Shown here piece by piece: positions 37,764-45,687 of a DNA stretch of 64,000 bases. A model generated the notes under the pieces. It saw only the letters and a program-made list of their open reading frames with translations. It did not search any database and was not told where the DNA came from. The DNA comes from Alcanivoracaceae bacterium (GTDB taxonomy: Bacteria > Pseudomonadota > Gammaproteobacteria > Pseudomonadales > Alcanivoracaceae). The first letter of the stretch is position 1. Every line of letters begins with the position of its first letter. The DNA lies in NCBI GenBank assembly GCA_029210325.1, contig JARGPU010000001.1, positions 816,126 through 880,125 on the forward strand, read 5' to 3'. A program made the translations under genes and the position numbers.

Positions 37764-39611
37764 TCACTGCGTGTTCGCTGCAGATACCTTCGTGTTCATG
37801 TGTGAAATAAAGGACTCCGGTCCCATTTCGCCCAATATGCGGCTACCAGCAATCTCATTACCATCGCCATCAAAGAAAATCAGGCAAGGCAGGCCGATAA
37901 TCCCAAAGCGCTGCATGATTCCCTGATTGTCACGGTTGACCTCGGTGATATCGGCCTTGATCAGGCGGTAGTTCTGGTTTGCCAGAGCCGCAAGCACATC
38001 GCTCTGATTGAGGGTTTTCTCTTCCAGAACCTTGCAGGCTGCGCACCAGTCGGCATAAAAGTCCACCAGTACAGGCTGGCCATCGCGCCGGGCCTGATCC
38101 AGCTGCTGCTGCAATGCATCTGAACCGTTAACCTTCAGCCAAGCCCCGTGCGCCGCAGTAGCGGTCGCACCGCCCTCGGCAACAGTGGCGGGTCGATCAA
38201 GCGGTTGTAGCGGGTCAGTGCCGCCCCCGGCGGCGCCCACCAGCATGATGGCGCCGTACAGTGCCATCACCAGGGCCAAGGTTCGCTTGAGCCGCGACTG
38301 TCCCGCCTGAACTGGTTCCAGTGCGCCAAGCCAGACTCCATAGCTGGTTAGTAATAGGCCGTACAGTGCCAGAGTCAGGCTGGCTGGGATGACCCGGCCA
38401 AGCAGCCAGACGGCCACGCCGAGCATCAGCACGCCAAAAAAGCGTTTGATATCTTCCATCCAGGCGCCCGCTTTAGGCAGCAAGTGTCCGCCCCCGGTAC
38501 CGAACATAATCAGCGGGAAGCCCATGCCCATGGATAGCGCAAACAGGCTAAGTGCTCCGGTGAGGGCATCGCCGCTGGCGGCAACGTAGACCAGTGCGCC
38601 GGCCAGAATGGGTGTCACACAAGGGGATACTACCAAGGCGGAAATTGCGCCAATCAGTCCGGCGCCCCAAAGCGATCCGCCGTTGCGACCTTCGCCCATG
38701 GAGTTCAGTCGGTTGCGCAGTGCTGCCGGCAGTTGCAGCTCGTAAAGGCCGAACATGGCCAGCGCCAGCACCACAAAGATAATGGTCGAAACAATAATAG
38801 CTGCCGGTTGTTGGAGTATGTACTGCAGGTTCATGCCGGCGCCGAACATGGCGACCAGCAGGCCTGCGACCGTGTAGGGGACGGCCACGCCAAGCACGTA
38901 GGCACTGCTAAGCATGAAGCCGCGGCCTGCTCCGGGATTGTCCGCGCCGGCGATGATCCCGGACAGAATTGGGATCATGGGGAAAACACAGGGGGTGAAA
39001 GCGAGTAGCAGGCCACCGGCAAAAAACAGCAGTAGCACCATGCCCAGACCGTGGCTGCCCATCCAGTCACTGAAGGCGCCGGCATTGTCTGAAGTAAGAG
39101 TATCCATAAAGCTGATTTGAGCGCTGCTGGCGGTAACTACCACTGGCTCCGGTTCGGCAACAAATACCAGCGGAATGCGAGCGGTCTGCGGGGTGTAGCA
39201 CAGCACATTCTCAAGGCATCCCTGATGGTCCAGCTCCAGTATTGTGGCTACCAGCGGCACGCTATCCAGGGAAACAGTGAATTCCAGTTGGTCGTAGTAG
39301 ACCTCTACGTCGCCAAAAATCTCATCGACCTTGGACTTGCCGGCAGGGGGCTGAAAGTCAGCAAAGTCGTTTAGCAGGTTGCCGTTTTCGTCCAGCAGGC
39401 GCAGGCCCAAGCTGTGCTGATACAGGTAAACGTCCGGGTAAAGGTCCACTACCACGCGAATCTGCTGCTGCTCAGGCTCAGCAAAGGCGCTCACCTGCAT
39501 GGCATCGCTGGCCAGCGGTATATCGTCTTGAGTGCCGGAAAAAGGGCTGCCGTGAACCTGCCCGATGAACAGAAGCATGCTGGCGGTGATGGCAAGTAAA
39601 AATCTGTACAT
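37764..39611 (-). CDS. dsbD: Thiol:disulfide interchange protein DsbD
   Basis: Moves electrons from cytoplasmic thioredoxin across the inner membrane to periplasmic thiol proteins. The 615-residue product has a signal peptide, an N-terminal alpha domain with a Cys pair (HQGCLENVLCYTP), eight membrane helices whose electron-carrying cysteines sit in FTPCVFPM and VSPCVTPI, and a C-terminal thioredoxin domain with CAAC (DWCAACKVL). The ATG at 39611 with GGAG upstream is chosen; an upstream in-frame extension is not family-like. It is divergent from a TlpA-like thioredoxin operon with shared operator-like repeats, which makes that operon its likely client. Confidence 0.95.
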   Translation of the reverse strand: MYRFLLAITASMLLFIGQVHGSPFSGTQDDIPLASDAMQVSAFAEPEQQQIRVVVDLYPDVYLYQHSLGLRLLDENGNLLNDFADFQPPAGKSKVDEIFGDVEVYYDQLEFTVSLDSVPLVATILELDHQGCLENVLCYTPQTARIPLVFVAEPEPVVVTASSAQISFMDTLTSDNAGAFSDWMGSHGLGMVLLLFFAGGLLLAFTPCVFPMIPILSGIIAGADNPGAGRGFMLSSAYVLGVAVPYTVAGLLVAMFGAGMNLQYILQQPAAIIVSTIIFVVLALAMFGLYELQLPAALRNRLNSMGEGRNGGSLWGAGLIGAISALVVSPCVTPILAGALVYVAASGDALTGALSLFALSMGMGFPLIMFGTGGGHLLPKAGAWMEDIKRFFGVLMLGVAVWLLGRVIPASLTLALYGLLLTSYGVWLGALEPVQAGQSRLKRTLALVMALYGAIMLVGAAGGGTDPLQPLDRPATVAEGGATATAAHGAWLKVNGSDALQQQLDQARRDGQPVLVDFYADWCAACKVLEEKTLNQSDVLAALANQNYRLIKADITEVNRDNQGIMQRFGIIGLPCLIFFDGDGNEIAGSRILGEMGPESFISHMNTKVSAANTQ

Positions 39612-39662
39612 CAGTGTCTCCGTTGTCGACCCGGTGGACATCCCGGTAGCAGACAAGTTTCC

Positions 39663-39721
39663 GTAACTTGGCTTAACGGTATCTTAACAGTGACGGGCCG
39701 GCCCTTAAGATTGCGTTAAGG
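39663..39721. promoter_or_regulatory. Phased TTAAC/TTAAG half-sites between dsbD and the TlpA operon
   Basis: The divergent intergenic region holds CTTAAC-N5-CTTAAC at 39672-39688 and CTTAAG-N5-GTTAAG at 39704-39720. A further GTAAC lies at 39663. The half-sites start at 39663, 39673, 39684, 39705 and 39716, so their spacing is 10, 11, 21 and 11 bases and they fall on one face of the helix. This is the direct-repeat pattern bound by PmrA/QseB-type OmpR-family regulators (YTTAA-N6-YTTAA), and such a regulator is encoded in the operon on the right. Confidence 0.65.
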
Positions 39722-39762
39722 CAGCCGACTGAAACTGGGGCTGTTCTGAATTGGAGCCCATC

Positions 39763-40251
39763 ATGCGTCGACTACGTTTTCCAGGAATCTTGAATGTCTG
39801 TATCGCCCTCACTGTGGCTGCTGCTGCCCTGCCCGCATTGTCGGCTGAGCAAGAAATGTCGGCGGACCAATTTTCCCCATCACTGTACCCGCAGGCAAAG
39901 GTTATCTATCTGGATTTCTGGGCCAGCTGGTGCGTGCCCTGCCGGCAGTCCTTTCCCTGGTTGAATGAGATGCAGGCGAAGTATGCCGCACAGGGCCTGC
40001 AAATTGTTGGAATTAATGTTGACCGTCGTCACGCAGATGCCGAGCGCTTTCTTGCCGCGCATGCAGCCCACTTTCCTTTAGTGATGGATCCAGCGGGCGG
40101 CTTGGCAGAGCAGTATCAGCTGCAAGGCATGCCCTCCGCCGTGTTGATTGGCCCGGATGGTAAGGAGTTGGAGCGCCATATTGGCTTTCGTGCTGATCGT
40201 ACCGATGAATATGAGGCCGAGCTGCGCCGGCTGCTAGAGGAGCAGAAGTGA
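39763..40251 (+). CDS. TlpA-like periplasmic thioredoxin
   Basis: A 162-residue exported thioredoxin with a signal peptide (about residues 1-27, ending PALSA) and a TlpA/ResA-type fold. The active site is WCVPC in DFWASWCVPCRQSFPWL near residue 53, and the cis-Pro loop is GMPSAVLI near 122. It would reduce disulfides or metal-thiol sites in the periplasm with electrons from DsbD, encoded divergently. The start at 39763 follows TTGGAG. Its stop overlaps the next gene (TGATG), so the two are translated together. Confidence 0.87.
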   Translation: MRRLRFPGILNVCIALTVAAAALPALSAEQEMSADQFSPSLYPQAKVIYLDFWASWCVPCRQSFPWLNEMQAKYAAQGLQIVGINVDRRHADAERFLAAHAAHFPLVMDPAGGLAEQYQLQGMPSAVLIGPDGKELERHIGFRADRTDEYEAELRRLLEEQK

Positions 40252-40469
40252 TGATGCGTTTGATTGTGGTGGCAAGTTGTTTGCTGGTACTGGCTGGTTG
40301 TCAGAATCTTGGGGTAAACCCCTGGGAGCGTGATGTGCTGGCTCGTGAAGCGATGATTCCTGGTGAGGCAGATGGTCTCGATGATGCTTTCGATGACCAT
40401 ATCTATTTCTCTAAGGAAGGCTCCAGTGGTGGTCGTGGATTTGGTGGAGGTGGCTGCGGATGCAACTGA
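40251..40469 (+). CDS. DUF4266 small lipoprotein with Gly/Cys-rich tail
   Basis: A 72-residue lipoprotein. A short signal ends in a lipobox LAGC near residue 17, then NPWERDVLAREAM, the DUF4266 core and HIYFSKEGSSGGRGF, and it finishes with GGGGCGCN. The C-x-C pair at the very end of a Gly-rich flexible tail is striking and looks like a metal, haem or thiol-redox handle, but nothing in sequence proves it. The gene overlaps both neighbours, thioredoxin and DUF3570 barrel. Function unknown; exposed on the membrane surface if the lipobox is used. Confidence 0.8.
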   Translation: MMRLIVVASCLLVLAGCQNLGVNPWERDVLAREAMIPGEADGLDDAFDDHIYFSKEGSSGGRGFGGGGCGCN

Positions 40470-41758
40470 AAAAGCAAAATCAATCAACGGCTTGTGCCGG
40501 CTCTGTGGCCAAGACTCTGGCGCTAGCCAGCTGCGCTTTGCTGGGAGTCCCTGCGCTGGCAGCGGATGCGCCAGTGGATCAGTGGAAGGTAGACGGCACG
40601 GTGTTGCTCTACTCGGAAACCGATCGTGTCTCTGCAATTGAGCCGGTCATTAAAGCCAGCCGTACTTTCGAGAACGAGAGCAAACTGGACCTGAAACTGA
40701 CGGTGGATTCGCTGACCGGCAATTCACATAACGGGGCCGCAGTGTTGGCTGCGCCACAAACCTTTACTAGCCCATCGGGTAAAGATGTCTATCAGGTTAA
40801 TGCCGGCGATGTGCCTCTGGATGATTCATTCAAGGACACCCGTGTGGCGGTGAGCGCCCAGTACAGCTGGCTGCTTAATCGCAACCTGCGGGCTACCAGC
40901 GGGCTCAACTTTTCCAATGAATATGATTTCTTCTCGGTCGGCGCCAATGCAGGTCTGAGCCTGGATCTGAATCAGAAAAACACCACGCTTTCATTCCTGC
41001 TTGGTCTGGAAAGCGACACCATCGAGCCGGTTGGAGGGGTTCCAGATCCGCTGACGGTGCAGAGTGATGGTCTGCGTGTGGACAGTGGTGAGTCTCGCAC
41101 GGTGACTGATGCGTTGCTGGGCTGGACTCAGGTGATGAACCGCCGCTGGGTCATGCAGCTTAATTACAACTTGTCAGCGGCCAGCGGTTATATGACAGAC
41201 CCCTATAAGGTTGTGACGCTGATTGACGAAGTGACGGGCCTACCTTTGGAGGCGGAAGATCTGGGTGGTGCGAATATTGGTCCTGGCGATGGTCAAGTGT
41301 ATGAGCTGCGCCCGGATTCACGCACCAAGCACGCGCTTTATTGGGAGAACCGGTATGCCCGGGAGAACGATGATGTGATTGCTGTGGGTTACCGGTTTAT
41401 GACCGATGACTGGGGTATCAGCTCTCATACTCTCGACCTGAAGTATCGCTGGCAGTTGGAGAATGGCTGGTTCGTTCAGCCGCACGTGCGCTACTACACC
41501 CAGAGTGAGGCGGACTTCTGGTATGAATCGCTCACCGAGGTCGACTACAACGCGATTGTTGCCAGTAACGATTACGCCAGTGGTGATTACCGCCTGGGCA
41601 AGCTGACCGATACCACTGTAGGGGTGAAGTTTGGTCGTGAACTGGCTAATGGACGCAGGTGGGATACACGACTTGAGTTCATGCAGCAATCCGGTGACAC
41701 CGATGCTGCGGATGTCAGCGCCGTGATTGGTCAGGTAGGCTATCGCTTCTACTGGTAA
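40460..41758 (+). CDS. DUF3570 family outer-membrane barrel protein
   Basis: A 432-residue exported protein with a signal peptide ending ALAAD near residue 36 and alternating beta-strand sequence to the C-terminus, which ends in Tyr-Arg-Phe-Tyr-Trp, a typical outer-membrane C-terminal aromatic. About a dozen amphipathic strands are visible, so a barrel is likely. No pore or ligand motif is recognised. It follows the DUF4266 gene with a 10-base overlap, a pairing I remember as common but uncharacterised. Residues 83-89 read DSLTGNS, which loosely resembles an ApbE target motif. Confidence 0.78.
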   Translation: MQLKKQNQSTACAGSVAKTLALASCALLGVPALAADAPVDQWKVDGTVLLYSETDRVSAIEPVIKASRTFENESKLDLKLTVDSLTGNSHNGAAVLAAPQTFTSPSGKDVYQVNAGDVPLDDSFKDTRVAVSAQYSWLLNRNLRATSGLNFSNEYDFFSVGANAGLSLDLNQKNTTLSFLLGLESDTIEPVGGVPDPLTVQSDGLRVDSGESRTVTDALLGWTQVMNRRWVMQLNYNLSAASGYMTDPYKVVTLIDEVTGLPLEAEDLGGANIGPGDGQVYELRPDSRTKHALYWENRYARENDDVIAVGYRFMTDDWGISSHTLDLKYRWQLENGWFVQPHVRYYTQSEADFWYESLTEVDYNAIVASNDYASGDYRLGKLTDTTVGVKFGRELANGRRWDTRLEFMQQSGDTDAADVSAVIGQVGYRFYW

Positions 41759-41772
41759 GCAGAGATGGGGCG

Positions 41773-42651
41773 ATGGCCGGAGAAACCCGACTGAGTCGCA
41801 CCCGCGAGGGCTGGATTGGCCGATTTGAAGCCATGGCCAGCCCTTGCGAGGTGCAGTTGCGTGATGTCAGCAGGGTGCTTGCCCAGCATGTGACCGATCT
41901 GGTGGCGGAGGAGGCGTGGCGAGTCGAGCAGCGCTTTTCCCGTTACCGTGATGACAACATTATTGCTCAGATCCGTGACGCCAATGGCAAGTGGGTGACG
42001 CTGGACGACGAGCTGGAACGCTTGCTGGATTACGCCCACAGCTGCTGGCAACTCAGTGAGGGACGCTTTGATATCACCTCTGGAGTGTTGCGCCGGGTTT
42101 GGCGCTTTGACGGTTCCGACCGAATTCCCTCCGCTGAGGAAGTGGCACAGCTATTACCGCTGATAGGCTGGGATAAGGTTGAGCGAGAGCAAGGCCGTTT
42201 GCGTATGCCCGCCGGCATGGAGGTCGATCTTGGCGGCATCGGTAAAGAGTATGCGGTTGATCGGGCGCTGCTGCTTACCCGCCAGCACACCTCCGCTGAC
42301 CTGCTTATCAATTTTGGCGGCGACTTGGTCGCTTGTGCACAAAAGCCATGGCAGGTTGGCATTGAAAACCTTCGTAATGACGGCGTCGTGGGGCAGATAT
42401 CCTTGAGTCAGGGTGCCGTCGCCACCAGCGGTGATACCCGCCGTTTTCTGCTGCGCGCTGGCAAGCGCTATAGTCATATTCTTGATCCGCTCAGTGGCTG
42501 GCCGATTGAGGGTGGGCCACATTCCATTACTGTAGTTGCTGCCCGTTGTACCGAGGCCGGAATGTTGGCCACTCTGGCGTTGCTGCGTGGCAAAGATGCC
42601 GAGGCCTTTTTGCAGGCCCAGAATGTGCGCTATTGGGGTCTTTGGGACTAG
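41773..42651 (+). CDS. apbE: ApbE-type FAD:protein FMN transferase
   Basis: Transfers FMN from FAD to a Ser/Thr of a target protein (ApbE family, Mg-dependent). Of its 292 residues, the core shows VDLGGIGKEYAVDRA near 154-168, NFGGDLVA near 180-187 and GAVATSGDTRRF...SHILDP in the C-terminal part, the FAD and metal-binding stretches. Unlike most ApbE proteins there is no obvious signal peptide or lipobox (N-terminus MAGETRLSRTREGWIG), so it may act in the cytoplasm. It is in the DUF4266-DUF3570 operon, the most likely place to find its target. Confidence 0.88.
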   Translation: MAGETRLSRTREGWIGRFEAMASPCEVQLRDVSRVLAQHVTDLVAEEAWRVEQRFSRYRDDNIIAQIRDANGKWVTLDDELERLLDYAHSCWQLSEGRFDITSGVLRRVWRFDGSDRIPSAEEVAQLLPLIGWDKVEREQGRLRMPAGMEVDLGGIGKEYAVDRALLLTRQHTSADLLINFGGDLVACAQKPWQVGIENLRNDGVVGQISLSQGAVATSGDTRRFLLRAGKRYSHILDPLSGWPIEGGPHSITVVAARCTEAGMLATLALLRGKDAEAFLQAQNVRYWGLWD

Positions 42652-42673
42652 CCAGTATCAAGAGGAATGGGCA

Positions 42674-43333
42674 ATGCGGATTCTGCTGGTCGAAGATGAT
42701 CAACTGCTTGGCGATGGTTTGCAGTGTGCTTTGCGGGCGGATCATTTCACCGTTGACTGGATCACCTCAGGTAGTGAAGTGGAAGGAGCCTTGAAGAATG
42801 GCCACTTCGACCTGGTGCTGCTAGACCTTGGCCTGCCGGGGATGGATGGCTTGCAGGCACTGCGTCGCTTGCGGGCCAGCGACAACCCGGTACCTGTGCT
42901 TATCCTTTCTGCCCGTGACCAGTTGCCGGACCGTGTGGCCGGTTTGGATGCAGGCGCTGACGACTATCTGGTGAAGCCCTTCGAGATGGATGAACTGCGC
43001 GCCCGTATTCGTGCGCGCATGCGACGTCTTGCGGACCAGTCCGTGCAGCAGATTGTGGTGGGCACGCTGGCCATCAATAGTGACACTCTTGAGGTGATCT
43101 TAAATGGTGAGCCGGTGGCTTTGTCGCGTCGTGAAACAGTGCTGTTGATGGCGCTAGCCCGTGAGGCCGGACGGGTGCTGACTCGGGATCGCCTGGAGCA
43201 GGAGCTGTACGGCTGGTCGGAGGACGTCGAGAGTAACGCGCTGGAAGTGCATATCCATCATCTGCGTAAGAAACTCGGCACTGATCTGATCCGCACCGTT
43301 CGCGGAGTTGGTTATCAATTGGTGGCACGCTGA
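42674..43333 (+). CDS. OmpR-family response regulator (QseB/PmrA-like)
   Basis: A 219-residue regulator with a receiver domain (phospho-acceptor Asp at residue 51 in LVLLDLGLPG) and a C-terminal winged helix ending in SNALEVHIHHLRKKLG, the signature of the QseB/PmrA subgroup. Its stop overlaps the kinase start. That subgroup binds direct TTAA repeats of the type found upstream of this operon, so it is the best candidate for autoregulation. Confidence 0.93.
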   Translation: MRILLVEDDQLLGDGLQCALRADHFTVDWITSGSEVEGALKNGHFDLVLLDLGLPGMDGLQALRRLRASDNPVPVLILSARDQLPDRVAGLDAGADDYLVKPFEMDELRARIRARMRRLADQSVQQIVVGTLAINSDTLEVILNGEPVALSRRETVLLMALAREAGRVLTRDRLEQELYGWSEDVESNALEVHIHHLRKKLGTDLIRTVRGVGYQLVAR

Positions 43334-44688
43334 TGTTCTCTATTCGACGCTTTCTTATTTTTTCGCTGACGGCGGTTTTGTTCGCTGCGGGGGTTCTTGT
43401 CACCTCGCTGGTTTACTGGATTGCCGGGCACCAAGTGGAAGAGCTGTTTGATGGCCAGCTGGTTCAGCGTGGTCGATTGTTGGCCAGCTGGCTGGAGCAA
43501 AGCGATGCTGAAGCAGCGTTGACAGTGCGGGTTCTACCAGCGCCCGGGCATAGCTATGAGCGCTATGTGGCAGTGCAGCATGTTTCTGCACAGGGTGAGC
43601 TGCTGTTCAGCACATCCGTGGCGCTTGATGAAGTGCTGGGCCCCCTTGTGCCTGGGGTGTCCGTGCAGACTGTGGGGCAGCGCCACTGGCACGTCTTTTC
43701 CCAGCCGTTGAGCGACGGCAAGTGGCTTATGGTGGCCGAAGAGCAGCATGTCCGTGATGAGTTGTCCAACGAGGCTATGCTGGCAATCGTAACGCCATTT
43801 CTATTGGTGTGGCCTTTCCTGATTATCGCTCTGCTGTGGGCTTTGCGCCGTGGATTGCGTCCATTGACAGAGCTTGAACAGGCTCTCCGTGAGCGTAACG
43901 AGCGGCATCTGAAAGCACTTGAATACGGTAGTGACGTGGCCGAACTGCATTTGTTTGTCAGGGAGCTCAATCGTCTGTTGGCGCGTATTGATGAAGTGCT
44001 GGCGAGGGAGAAGCGGTTTACTGATGACTCGGCCCATGAGCTACGCACGTTGCTTAGCATTCTTCAGCTGCATGCAGAAAATGCCAAGAGGGCCGAGTCA
44101 ACTGCCGAGCGGGGGCATGCTCTTGGCCAGTTGCAGGCAGGAATAGATCGGGCAGCCCGTACGGTGAAGCAGCTGTTGTTTCTCGCCCGTTTAGATGCAG
44201 ATATTGCGGTTGAGAGTCGTCCCGTTGCGGTGATGCCAGTACTGCGTCAGGTGCTGGCCGATATGCTCTCGCACGCCGATGCTGCCGGGCAGGAGTTAGC
44301 TCTGGAGCCTGAAGGCGTTGAGAAGATTGAGGTTCGGCTAGATCCAGAGCTGCTTGCCACCCTGCTGCGTAACCTGATTGATAATGCCATTCGCTACTCT
44401 CCATCTGGCAGCCTGGTTGCGGTTAAGGCAAAAGTGGATGGCGGGATGCTAGATCTGCGTGTTGAGGACGGCGGCCCTGGCATGCCGGCGCAAATGGCAG
44501 GCCGTGAGGGAGAGCGCTTTTTGCGCGGTGATCATGGTGTATCAGGTACCGGGCTGGGGCTGTCGATAGTGCGCAGAATCGTTGAGTCCTGTGCCGGACA
44601 AGTCAGTTTTCAGCCCCGCCAGGAGGGGCTTGCGGCAGCGGTGGTGATCCGTTTGCCTGTTGTCATAGAAGCCTCTGGGGTAGTCTAG
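43333..44688 (+). CDS. Sensor histidine kinase (QseC-like)
   Basis: A 451-residue membrane kinase with transmembrane helices near residues 7-31 and 150-170, a periplasmic loop of about 120 residues between them, then a linker, the phospho-acceptor His at 235 (DDSAHELRTLLSIL), an N-box (NLIDNAIRYS) and GxG boxes (GGPGMPAQMAGREGERF, GTGLGLSIV). The residue after the HELRT core is Leu where Pro is usual, an oddity that may alter the HisKA helix. It overlaps the regulator gene in TGATG and is the last gene of the TlpA/DUF3570/ApbE unit. Confidence 0.92.
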   Translation: MFSIRRFLIFSLTAVLFAAGVLVTSLVYWIAGHQVEELFDGQLVQRGRLLASWLEQSDAEAALTVRVLPAPGHSYERYVAVQHVSAQGELLFSTSVALDEVLGPLVPGVSVQTVGQRHWHVFSQPLSDGKWLMVAEEQHVRDELSNEAMLAIVTPFLLVWPFLIIALLWALRRGLRPLTELEQALRERNERHLKALEYGSDVAELHLFVRELNRLLARIDEVLAREKRFTDDSAHELRTLLSILQLHAENAKRAESTAERGHALGQLQAGIDRAARTVKQLLFLARLDADIAVESRPVAVMPVLRQVLADMLSHADAAGQELALEPEGVEKIEVRLDPELLATLLRNLIDNAIRYSPSGSLVAVKAKVDGGMLDLRVEDGGPGMPAQMAGREGERFLRGDHGVSGTGLGLSIVRRIVESCAGQVSFQPRQEGLAAAVVIRLPVVIEASGVV

Positions 44689-44718: not shown

Positions 44719-45687
44719 ATGAAACTTCCAGACAATATGACCGAGACAGTGGGTGACAGATTGCTGGACCCGGGCAATAACCGCGTCTGGCGGGCGGTGG
44801 TGGGGTTGGTCGTCCTGCTGCTGCTAGTGGATGCCGGGCTGGGATGGTACTGGAGTCAGGAGCCGGATCTCGCGGTGGTGGAGGTGGCACCGGATGCTGT
44901 GACGGGTGATGCCACCACGTCGGCTCTGATCATGGTTGCGGAAACTCTGCTCGATAAGCCGGGTGGCTATCTCAGCAATGACATGCTGCCGCACCGTTTA
45001 TGGCTGGACAATATGCCTGGCTGGGAGTTTGGTGTGGTGGTGCAAATCCGTGATATGACACGGGTGATGCGCCGCGATATGAGCCGCTCTCAGTCACAGA
45101 GCGAGGACGATGCTGACCTGATGAGGGCTGAGCCACAGTTCAACTTTGATAACGCCAGCTGGGCCATCCCTGCCACCGAGCGTGAGTATCGACGCGGCAT
45201 CGATGCGCTGAAACGTTATCGGGCACGGCTGGGTGAAAATGAGTCACGCTTCTATGCCCGGGCAGATAACTTGTCCTACTGGCTGGGGGATGTTCAGAAT
45301 CGGCTCGGTGCCATGTCCCAGCAGCTCAGCCAAAGTGTTGGTCAGGAAGCCATTGAGGGCCAGGTTGATAGCAAGCGTGAAAAAACTCCGTGGATGGATA
45401 TTGATGATGTGTTTTACGAGGCTCGCGGAGGTTGCTGGGCGTTGATTCATTTTCTCAAGGCAGCGGAACATGACTTTGCTGATGTGCTGGCCAAGAAGAA
45501 TGCGATGATTAGCTATCAGCAGGTTATCCGCGAGCTGGAGGGTACTCAGGAAACCATCTGGAGCCCGATGATTCTGAATGGCTCGGGCTTCGGCGTATTG
45601 GCCAACCACTCTTTGGTGATGGCTAACTATATTTCCCGGGCCAATGCGGCATTGCTTGATCTGCGCCAGCTGCTGTCCCAGGGCTGA
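44719..45687 (+). CDS. DUF2333 family protein
   Basis: A 322-residue protein with one N-terminal transmembrane helix (about residues 27-47, WRAVVGLVVLLLLVDAGLGWYW) and a large helical periplasmic domain of the DUF2333 type. The region is rich in Arg/Asp/Glu helices and lacks known catalytic motifs. It follows the two-component pair by 30 bases and is convergent with the next gene. Function unknown. Confidence 0.82.
   Translation: MKLPDNMTETVGDRLLDPGNNRVWRAVVGLVVLLLLVDAGLGWYWSQEPDLAVVEVAPDAVTGDATTSALIMVAETLLDKPGGYLSNDMLPHRLWLDNMPGWEFGVVVQIRDMTRVMRRDMSRSQSQSEDDADLMRAEPQFNFDNASWAIPATEREYRRGIDALKRYRARLGENESRFYARADNLSYWLGDVQNRLGAMSQQLSQSVGQEAIEGQVDSKREKTPWMDIDDVFYEARGGCWALIHFLKAAEHDFADVLAKKNAMISYQQVIRELEGTQETIWSPMILNGSGFGVLANHSLVMANYISRANAALLDLRQLLSQG

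Follow-up and report, generated by a model that had tools for sequence, protein, structure and literature searches.

The 64,000-nucleotide (nt) stretch of Alcanivoracaceae DNA analysed here (from contig JARGPU010000001.1; referred to as the window, with positions counted from its first letter) contains dsbD on the minus strand and, facing it, a plus-strand cassette at 39763-44688 in the order tlpA-DUF4266-DUF3570-apbE-response regulator-histidine kinase. The reading we favour, with middling confidence, is that this cassette serves thiol-driven, flavin-based electron transfer of the outer membrane and carries its own two-component switch. Good support for the broader proposal of the sequence-only reading, an envelope redox system with a dedicated sensor, comes from the conserved gene order, the intact cysteines of DsbD and TlpA and the operators conserved between the divergent transcripts; that reading had overlooked the identity of the operators, the unusual features of ApbE and the change in the flavin-acceptor motif.

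Composition and conservation of the cassette

All six plus-strand genes and the divergent dsbD previously named from the letters were found, each matching its family in profile searches. The dsbD product (37764-39611; PF02683, 2.9e-82; DsbD_N, 7e-19) scored 530 bits with the NCBIfam profile NF001419 (cutoff 330) and kept all of its redox cysteines, i.e. the nDsbD pair QGCLENVLCYTP, the transmembrane cysteines in FTPCVFP and VSPCVTP, and WCAACK of the thioredoxin domain. The first cassette gene (39763-40251) encodes a TlpA/ResA-like periplasmic thioredoxin (AhpC-TSA, 1e-16) with an intact WCVPC motif and, by inspection, an N-terminal signal sequence. It is followed by genes for the DUF4266 lipoprotein (40251-40469; PF14086, 6.5e-21; lipobox LAGC, C-terminal tail GGGCGCN), the DUF3570 protein (40460-41758; PF12094, 4e-115) and the ApbE-like flavin transferase (41773-42651; PF02424, 3e-66). 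An OmpR/PhoB-type, PmrA/QseB-like response regulator (42674-43333) and a QseC/PmrB-like sensor kinase (43333-44688), whose periplasmic sensor region is flanked by two transmembrane segments, complete the cassette. The tight packing claimed earlier was borne out: tlpA overlaps the DUF4266 gene, the DUF4266 and DUF3570 genes overlap by 10 nt (40460-40469) and the regulator and kinase genes by 1 nt, while DUF3570 and apbE are separated by 14 nt and apbE and the regulator gene by 22 nt, the largest spacing in the cassette. The interval formerly assigned to the whole system, 39611-44688, does cover the cassette genes, but it opens at the dsbD start codon, so that dsbD itself lies outside it.

The divergent arrangement of dsbD and the tlpA-DUF4266-DUF3570-apbE-two-component genes recurs in many genomes of the order, distributed over several families; DUF3570 was present in 71 of 195 genomes of the order. 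Among 185 genomes of the class, DUF3570 was detected in 45 and DUF4266 in 42, and every one of these 42 also holds DUF3570 (Fisher p 2e-38). The recurring order and this co-occurrence indicate that the arrangement is not due to chance; the genes are conserved together, the opposite of the outcome that the sequence-only reading had named as speaking against it. The C-terminal CGC tail of DUF4266 was kept in nearly all full-length copies read. Comparison with a congener (G195, whose DUF3570 is 97% identical to the window copy) revealed purifying selection on all cassette genes, with ratios of nonsynonymous to synonymous substitution rates (dN/dS) of 0.02-0.17. Values were 0.019 for DUF4266, 0.034 for DUF3570 and 0.077 for ApbE, the maximum for any gene between these two congeners being 0.17. 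From the low ratio in every gene it can be concluded that the cassette is in use, and a degenerate or dying operon, which the TGNS variant of the acceptor motif had led us to suspect, was ruled out on the same basis.

Gene clusters of DsbD, thioredoxin-like protein, DUF4266, DUF3570 and ApbE were described as 'DsbD systems' by Méheust et al. 2021 (eLife, PMC8238504), who counted 227 holding DUF3570 and 221 holding DUF4266, besides 316 more in which DsbD is not adjacent. These authors noted the CXC tail of DUF4266, reported flavinylation of C. luteolum DUF3570 by its cognate ApbE, ABB24423.1, at two [S/T]GA[S/T] sites and proposed a hybrid DsbD/thioredoxin/DUF4266/flavin chain, while calling the function of the module uncertain. 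The DUF4266/DUF3570 pair, for which the earlier reading could name no function, is therefore not wholly uncharacterised. In the window, DsbD (PF02683) lies within five genes of DUF3570 and ApbE, a thioredoxin-like protein and a DUF4266 with C-terminal CXC are present, and at least one of ApbE and DUF3570 (namely DUF3570) has a signal peptide by inspection. The locus thus shares with the published systems the same five protein families, the adjacency of their genes and the proposed electron source; it differs in its two-component system with conserved paired operators, its TGNS motif and its signal-less ApbE with an altered metal site. Our literature search on DUF3570 and DUF4266 returned only PMC8238504 and no later paper naming either family. 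The module itself has been known since 2021, whereas its regulatory, topological and enzymatic features were not found described in the literature searched.

The ApbE subfamily and the predicted DUF3570 barrel

Aligned to Listeria FmnB (7esa), with FmnB residue numbers placed via its DLGAIAKG and DGLST motifs, the window ApbE has Ser219, His235 and Lys158 at the positions of FmnB Ser257, His273 and Lys190. It therefore resembles the canonical ApbE, FmnB and Ftp enzymes in its PF02424 fold, its catalytic Ser219 and His235 and its lysine binding flavin adenine dinucleotide (FAD), Lys158. It departs from them in having neither signal peptide nor lipobox (most ApbEs are secreted), in carrying Gly263 at the position of FmnB Asp301, and in carrying Glu159 at that of Gly191, directly after Lys190. 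In FmnB, Asp301 binds both Mg ions and its substitution by Ala greatly reduces or abolishes activity (PMC8906456). The two exchanges are coupled: all 79 KE sequences in which the column of residue 263 was aligned combine Glu with Gly, and 9 of 9 sequences with Gly after the lysine have Asp, this control set of canonical ApbEs being small. The four solved ApbEs in the alignment carry Gly and Asp, as in the canonical group. The KE/AG ApbEs, which include those linked to DUF3570, have no recognisable signal peptide and make up a single clade, one side of a branch with support 100/96, and profile scores drop from 301 to 217 bits between the groups; the best solved match of the window protein is T. 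maritima TM1553 (1vrm, 3.6e-39).

No hydrophobic N-terminus was found in the window ApbE, its maximum mean hydropathy over 12 residues being 0.78 compared with 2.7-3.0 in the two other ApbEs of the genome, and in the structural model (pLDDT 92.8) the first 30 residues are largely taken up by strands of the fold (6-30). A wrongly assigned start that hides a signal peptide was ruled out, because the open reading frame (ORF) has no start before 41773 and its N-terminal residues are predicted to form structured strands. The simplest reading of these sequence features is that the metal-binding carboxylate would have been relocated, with Asp lost at 263 and Glu gained at 159, in an enzyme acting before export. 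When the Chlorobium pair was expressed in E. coli, DUF3570, obtained mostly from the pellet, was flavinylated (PMC8238504), which fits an enzyme working before export; signal-peptide-truncated constructs are stated there for another pair, the Chlorobium pair having been prepared by 'a similar cloning strategy'.

The genomic association of this subfamily with DUF3570 is strong. DUF3570 lies inside the fetched flank of 68 of the 79 KE/AG apbE genes, and 22 of 23 genomes with a KE/AG ApbE possess it (Fisher p 4e-15). In a search for the Chlorobium ApbE as a calibrator, a single-protein scan returned eight relatives only, all from gammaproteobacterial records, and a tblastn search of plasmids yielded only ApbEs of less than 60% identity; in the two that were checked, the flank fetched contained no DUF3570. 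In one sampled genome (G531, locus L172) a KE/AG ApbE was present and DUF3570 was not detected; the substrate of this enzyme might point to another target.

Structure prediction gives DUF3570, with high confidence, the fold of an outer-membrane barrel of 16 strands. The AlphaFold2 model built from a 46-sequence alignment (pLDDT 90.1, pTM 0.83) matched solved outer-membrane porins with a Foldseek probability of 1.00, and OmpG with a VIA Z of 17.5 over 263 residues (root-mean-square deviation 4.2). No specific barrel family stood out in the fold search, which identified DUF3570 as an outer-membrane barrel only. An even number of predicted strands and an aromatic C-terminus (YRFYW) are in line with such a barrel; by inspection, the N-terminus carries a Sec-type signal. 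Short and long turns alternate in the model, and long loops occur only after the odd strands 3, 7, 9 and 13. With both termini in the periplasm, as in porins, the loops following odd strands would face outward, and all long loops agree with this. The flavin-acceptor motif D83-S-L-T-G-N88-S89 (about 40706-40726, plus strand) ends strand 3 (75-87) and enters the 37-residue loop 88-124, which puts residue 89 near the loop start; in the model the motif should thus stand at the start of an outward-facing loop. The cell-surface placement suggested by the sequence-only reading agrees with this predicted topology and in this way gains inferential support. In the text of PMC8238504 the words barrel and porin are absent, and the outer membrane is named for TonB receptors only.

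The recognised flavinylation motif is D-x-x-[ST]-G-A-[ST], and an A-to-V change in another protein left about half of the flavinylation (PMC12052999). DSLTGNS occurs in DUF3570 of the window and of congener G195, and the same-family type-A DUF3570s read have DSLTGAS or DTLTGAS. The standard [ST]GA[ST] is present in 64 of the 69 DUF3570s that lie in view of a KE-type ApbE, the other five having N, P or S in place of A. The window protein thus deviates from [S/T]GA[S/T], which in PMC8238504 is a described feature and not the genomic criterion. Despite TGNS, Ser89 would be the flavinylated residue here.

Several variants of the cassette were noted along the way. The genome itself carries a second cassette without ApbE outside the window (G000:C13:769951-775899; L036:9952-15900), which encodes a protein of 899 aa whose middle domain is of the hydrazine-synthase-alpha type (PF18582) and which has two CxxCH haem motifs, then two small barrel-like proteins, TlpA, DUF4266 and a divergent DUF3570 with the motif DKVSAAS. 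A similar order was seen in L067-L072, L074 and L115, the large protein having two CxxCH motifs in all eight. In a genome of the same family (G216, 3,120,143 bp; L114:4493-5865), two overlapping ORFs (255 and 202 aa) stand in for the type-A DUF3570, next to an apparently intact ApbE and regulator pair; the split is due to a true frameshift or to an error in sequencing. TlpA-DUF4266-DUF3570 is tandemly duplicated with near-identical copies in G023 (L041:6976-10788), and in G114, G141, G314 and G663 (e.g. L053:8379-11246) the DUF3570 frames reach about 900-970 aa, double the usual length, and are possibly fusions.

Operators and probable two-component control

The region between dsbD and tlpA, called a repeat-rich promoter region before, does contain direct repeats, CTTAAC-N5-CTTAA[C/G], arranged as an inverted pair at 39656-39736. 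One half-pair, CTTAACGGTATCTTAAC (39672-39688, plus strand), reads CTTAAC-N5-CTTAAC and is a PmrA-box-like direct repeat with an 11-nt period; the other, CTTAACGCAATCTTAAG (39704-39720, minus strand), reads CTTAAC-N5-CTTAAG in the opposite orientation. The PmrA box consensus is CTTAAG-N5-XTTAAT (PMC3973317), and the two CTTAA-type half-sites at an 11-nt period known from PmrA operators are present here at the sequence level. The core TTAA-N7-TTAA was found in 18 of 18 divergent dsbD/tlpA intergenic regions, at a density of 8.1/kb as against 0.01/kb in the remainder of the same loci (approximately 800-fold), and upstream of 4 of 30 cassettes with other arrangements. The 18 loci are related and do not represent 18 independent events; the motif is constant across them though its spacing and position vary. 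Both its presence in all 18 and its enrichment over the flanks rule out that the repeats arose by chance. A stricter form of the pattern has three matches in the 3.03-Mb genome, two of them in the dsbD/tlpA region and the sole other at G000:C19:124684-124700. Predicted sigma-70 promoters and terminators were no commoner than in shuffled sequence.

Because the operator occurs in all 18 divergent loci at such enrichment, it is very probable, as far as sequence can tell, that the two-component system governs the dsbD transcript as well as that of the cassette. Its regulator and kinase are closest to the PmrAB and QseBC models of NCBIfam, and the operator is of the PmrA-box type; the regulator, however, scored 243.7 bits with PmrA (cutoff 330) and 234.5 with QseB (cutoff 345), both below the equivalog cutoffs, and the predicted targets here are dsbD and the flavin cassette. 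Alignment of the sensor domain gave no inferable ligand. A DUF2333 gene (44719-45687, plus strand) follows the kinase gene. It occurs in the same-family loci that have the regulator pair, is absent from most other families and probably stands outside the electron-transfer system.

Proposed electron route and its alternatives

In the model we favour, cytosolic thioredoxin would reduce DsbD and DsbD would reduce the periplasmic TlpA-like protein, steps that follow known DsbD biochemistry. TlpA would then pass electrons to the Cys-X-Cys tail at the C-terminus of DUF4266, the outer-membrane lipoprotein, which would reduce flavin mononucleotide (FMN) held covalently by the DUF3570 barrel close to its outward end, and the flavin would deliver them to an acceptor outside the cell; the DUF4266 and flavin steps are proposals, made by Méheust et al. 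and in this analysis. ApbE, lacking a signal peptide, would attach FMN to the barrel polypeptide while this is still in the cytoplasm, ahead of export. The kinase and regulator would sense a signal in the envelope and act at the operator pair, through which the membrane supply by DsbD and the cassette would respond together. The order and direction of electron flow, the cytoplasmic loading and the surface position of the flavin are what we infer from the combined evidence. More tentatively still, we suggest that the KE/AG enzymes are a distinct cytoplasmic flavin-transferase branch with a relocated carboxylate that loads an outer-membrane barrel before export, yielding an outward flavin fed by thiols without haems.

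Multihaem porin-cytochrome conduits serve extracellular electron transfer, with electrons crossing the outer membrane through a barrel. The DUF3570 barrel would likewise carry electrons across this membrane; here, however, thiol carriers and a flavin would take the place of haems, the cassette having no cytochrome.

Several points weigh against the proposed route. The ApbE does not have the Mg-ligand Asp, the acceptor DSLTGNS falls outside the recognised motif, and the link of DUF4266 and TlpA to the flavin is a proposal. DsbD may act in thiol reduction generally, with no more than the promoter region in common with the cassette. The reduction of flavin by thiols is chemically possible. An alternative would place the thiol branch at the centre: DsbD, TlpA and DUF4266 would deliver thiols or handle metal, the CGC tail would bind or reduce metal at the outer membrane, the barrel would be a pore, and flavinylation would be reduced or lost in this genus. 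DUF4266 is indeed the most constrained gene and its tail near-invariant, both congeners have a changed flavin motif, a VIT1 iron transporter occurs in some DUF3570 clusters (PMC8238504), and the paralogous cassette in the same genome has no ApbE. This alternative nevertheless appears unlikely to us, as ApbE is under purifying selection in both species, most relatives in view of a KE-type ApbE retain the standard motif, and no metal transporter or metallochaperone was recognised within the cassette.

Still less probable is that this ApbE, lacking a signal peptide, acts on a cytoplasmic protein, or is no flavin transferase at all, and that its adjacency to DUF3570 reflects shared regulation only. 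A cytosolic Klebsiella ApbE does flavinylate soluble fumarate reductase (PMC12052999), Gly takes the place of the Mg-ligand Asp in every member for which this column was aligned, and G531 has such an enzyme with no detected DUF3570. Yet the catalytic Ser and His and the FAD-binding Lys are kept, the association with DUF3570 holds in nearly all genomes that have such an ApbE, and the Chlorobium pair yielded flavinylated DUF3570 in E. coli. That a general QseBC-like regulator came to lie downstream by chance, with its main targets elsewhere, we regard as highly improbable: although QseBC/PmrAB-like systems are widespread and a further operator-like match exists on C19, synteny is kept over several families and the operators, found in every divergent locus, are near absent elsewhere.

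While electron transfer by DUF3570 has been known since 2021, the position of the flavin, its attachment site and the inducing switch are questions that the present locus allows to be addressed, as it offers a regulator whose operator is defined, an outward loop predicted to hold the flavin and an ApbE subfamily whose active-site exchange can be checked. Should the proposed route be confirmed, it would represent a thiol-to-flavin path across the cell envelope, and attaching flavin in the cytoplasm to a barrel bound for the outer membrane would be a novel means of building a redox protein at the cell surface that needs neither haem nor exported FAD.

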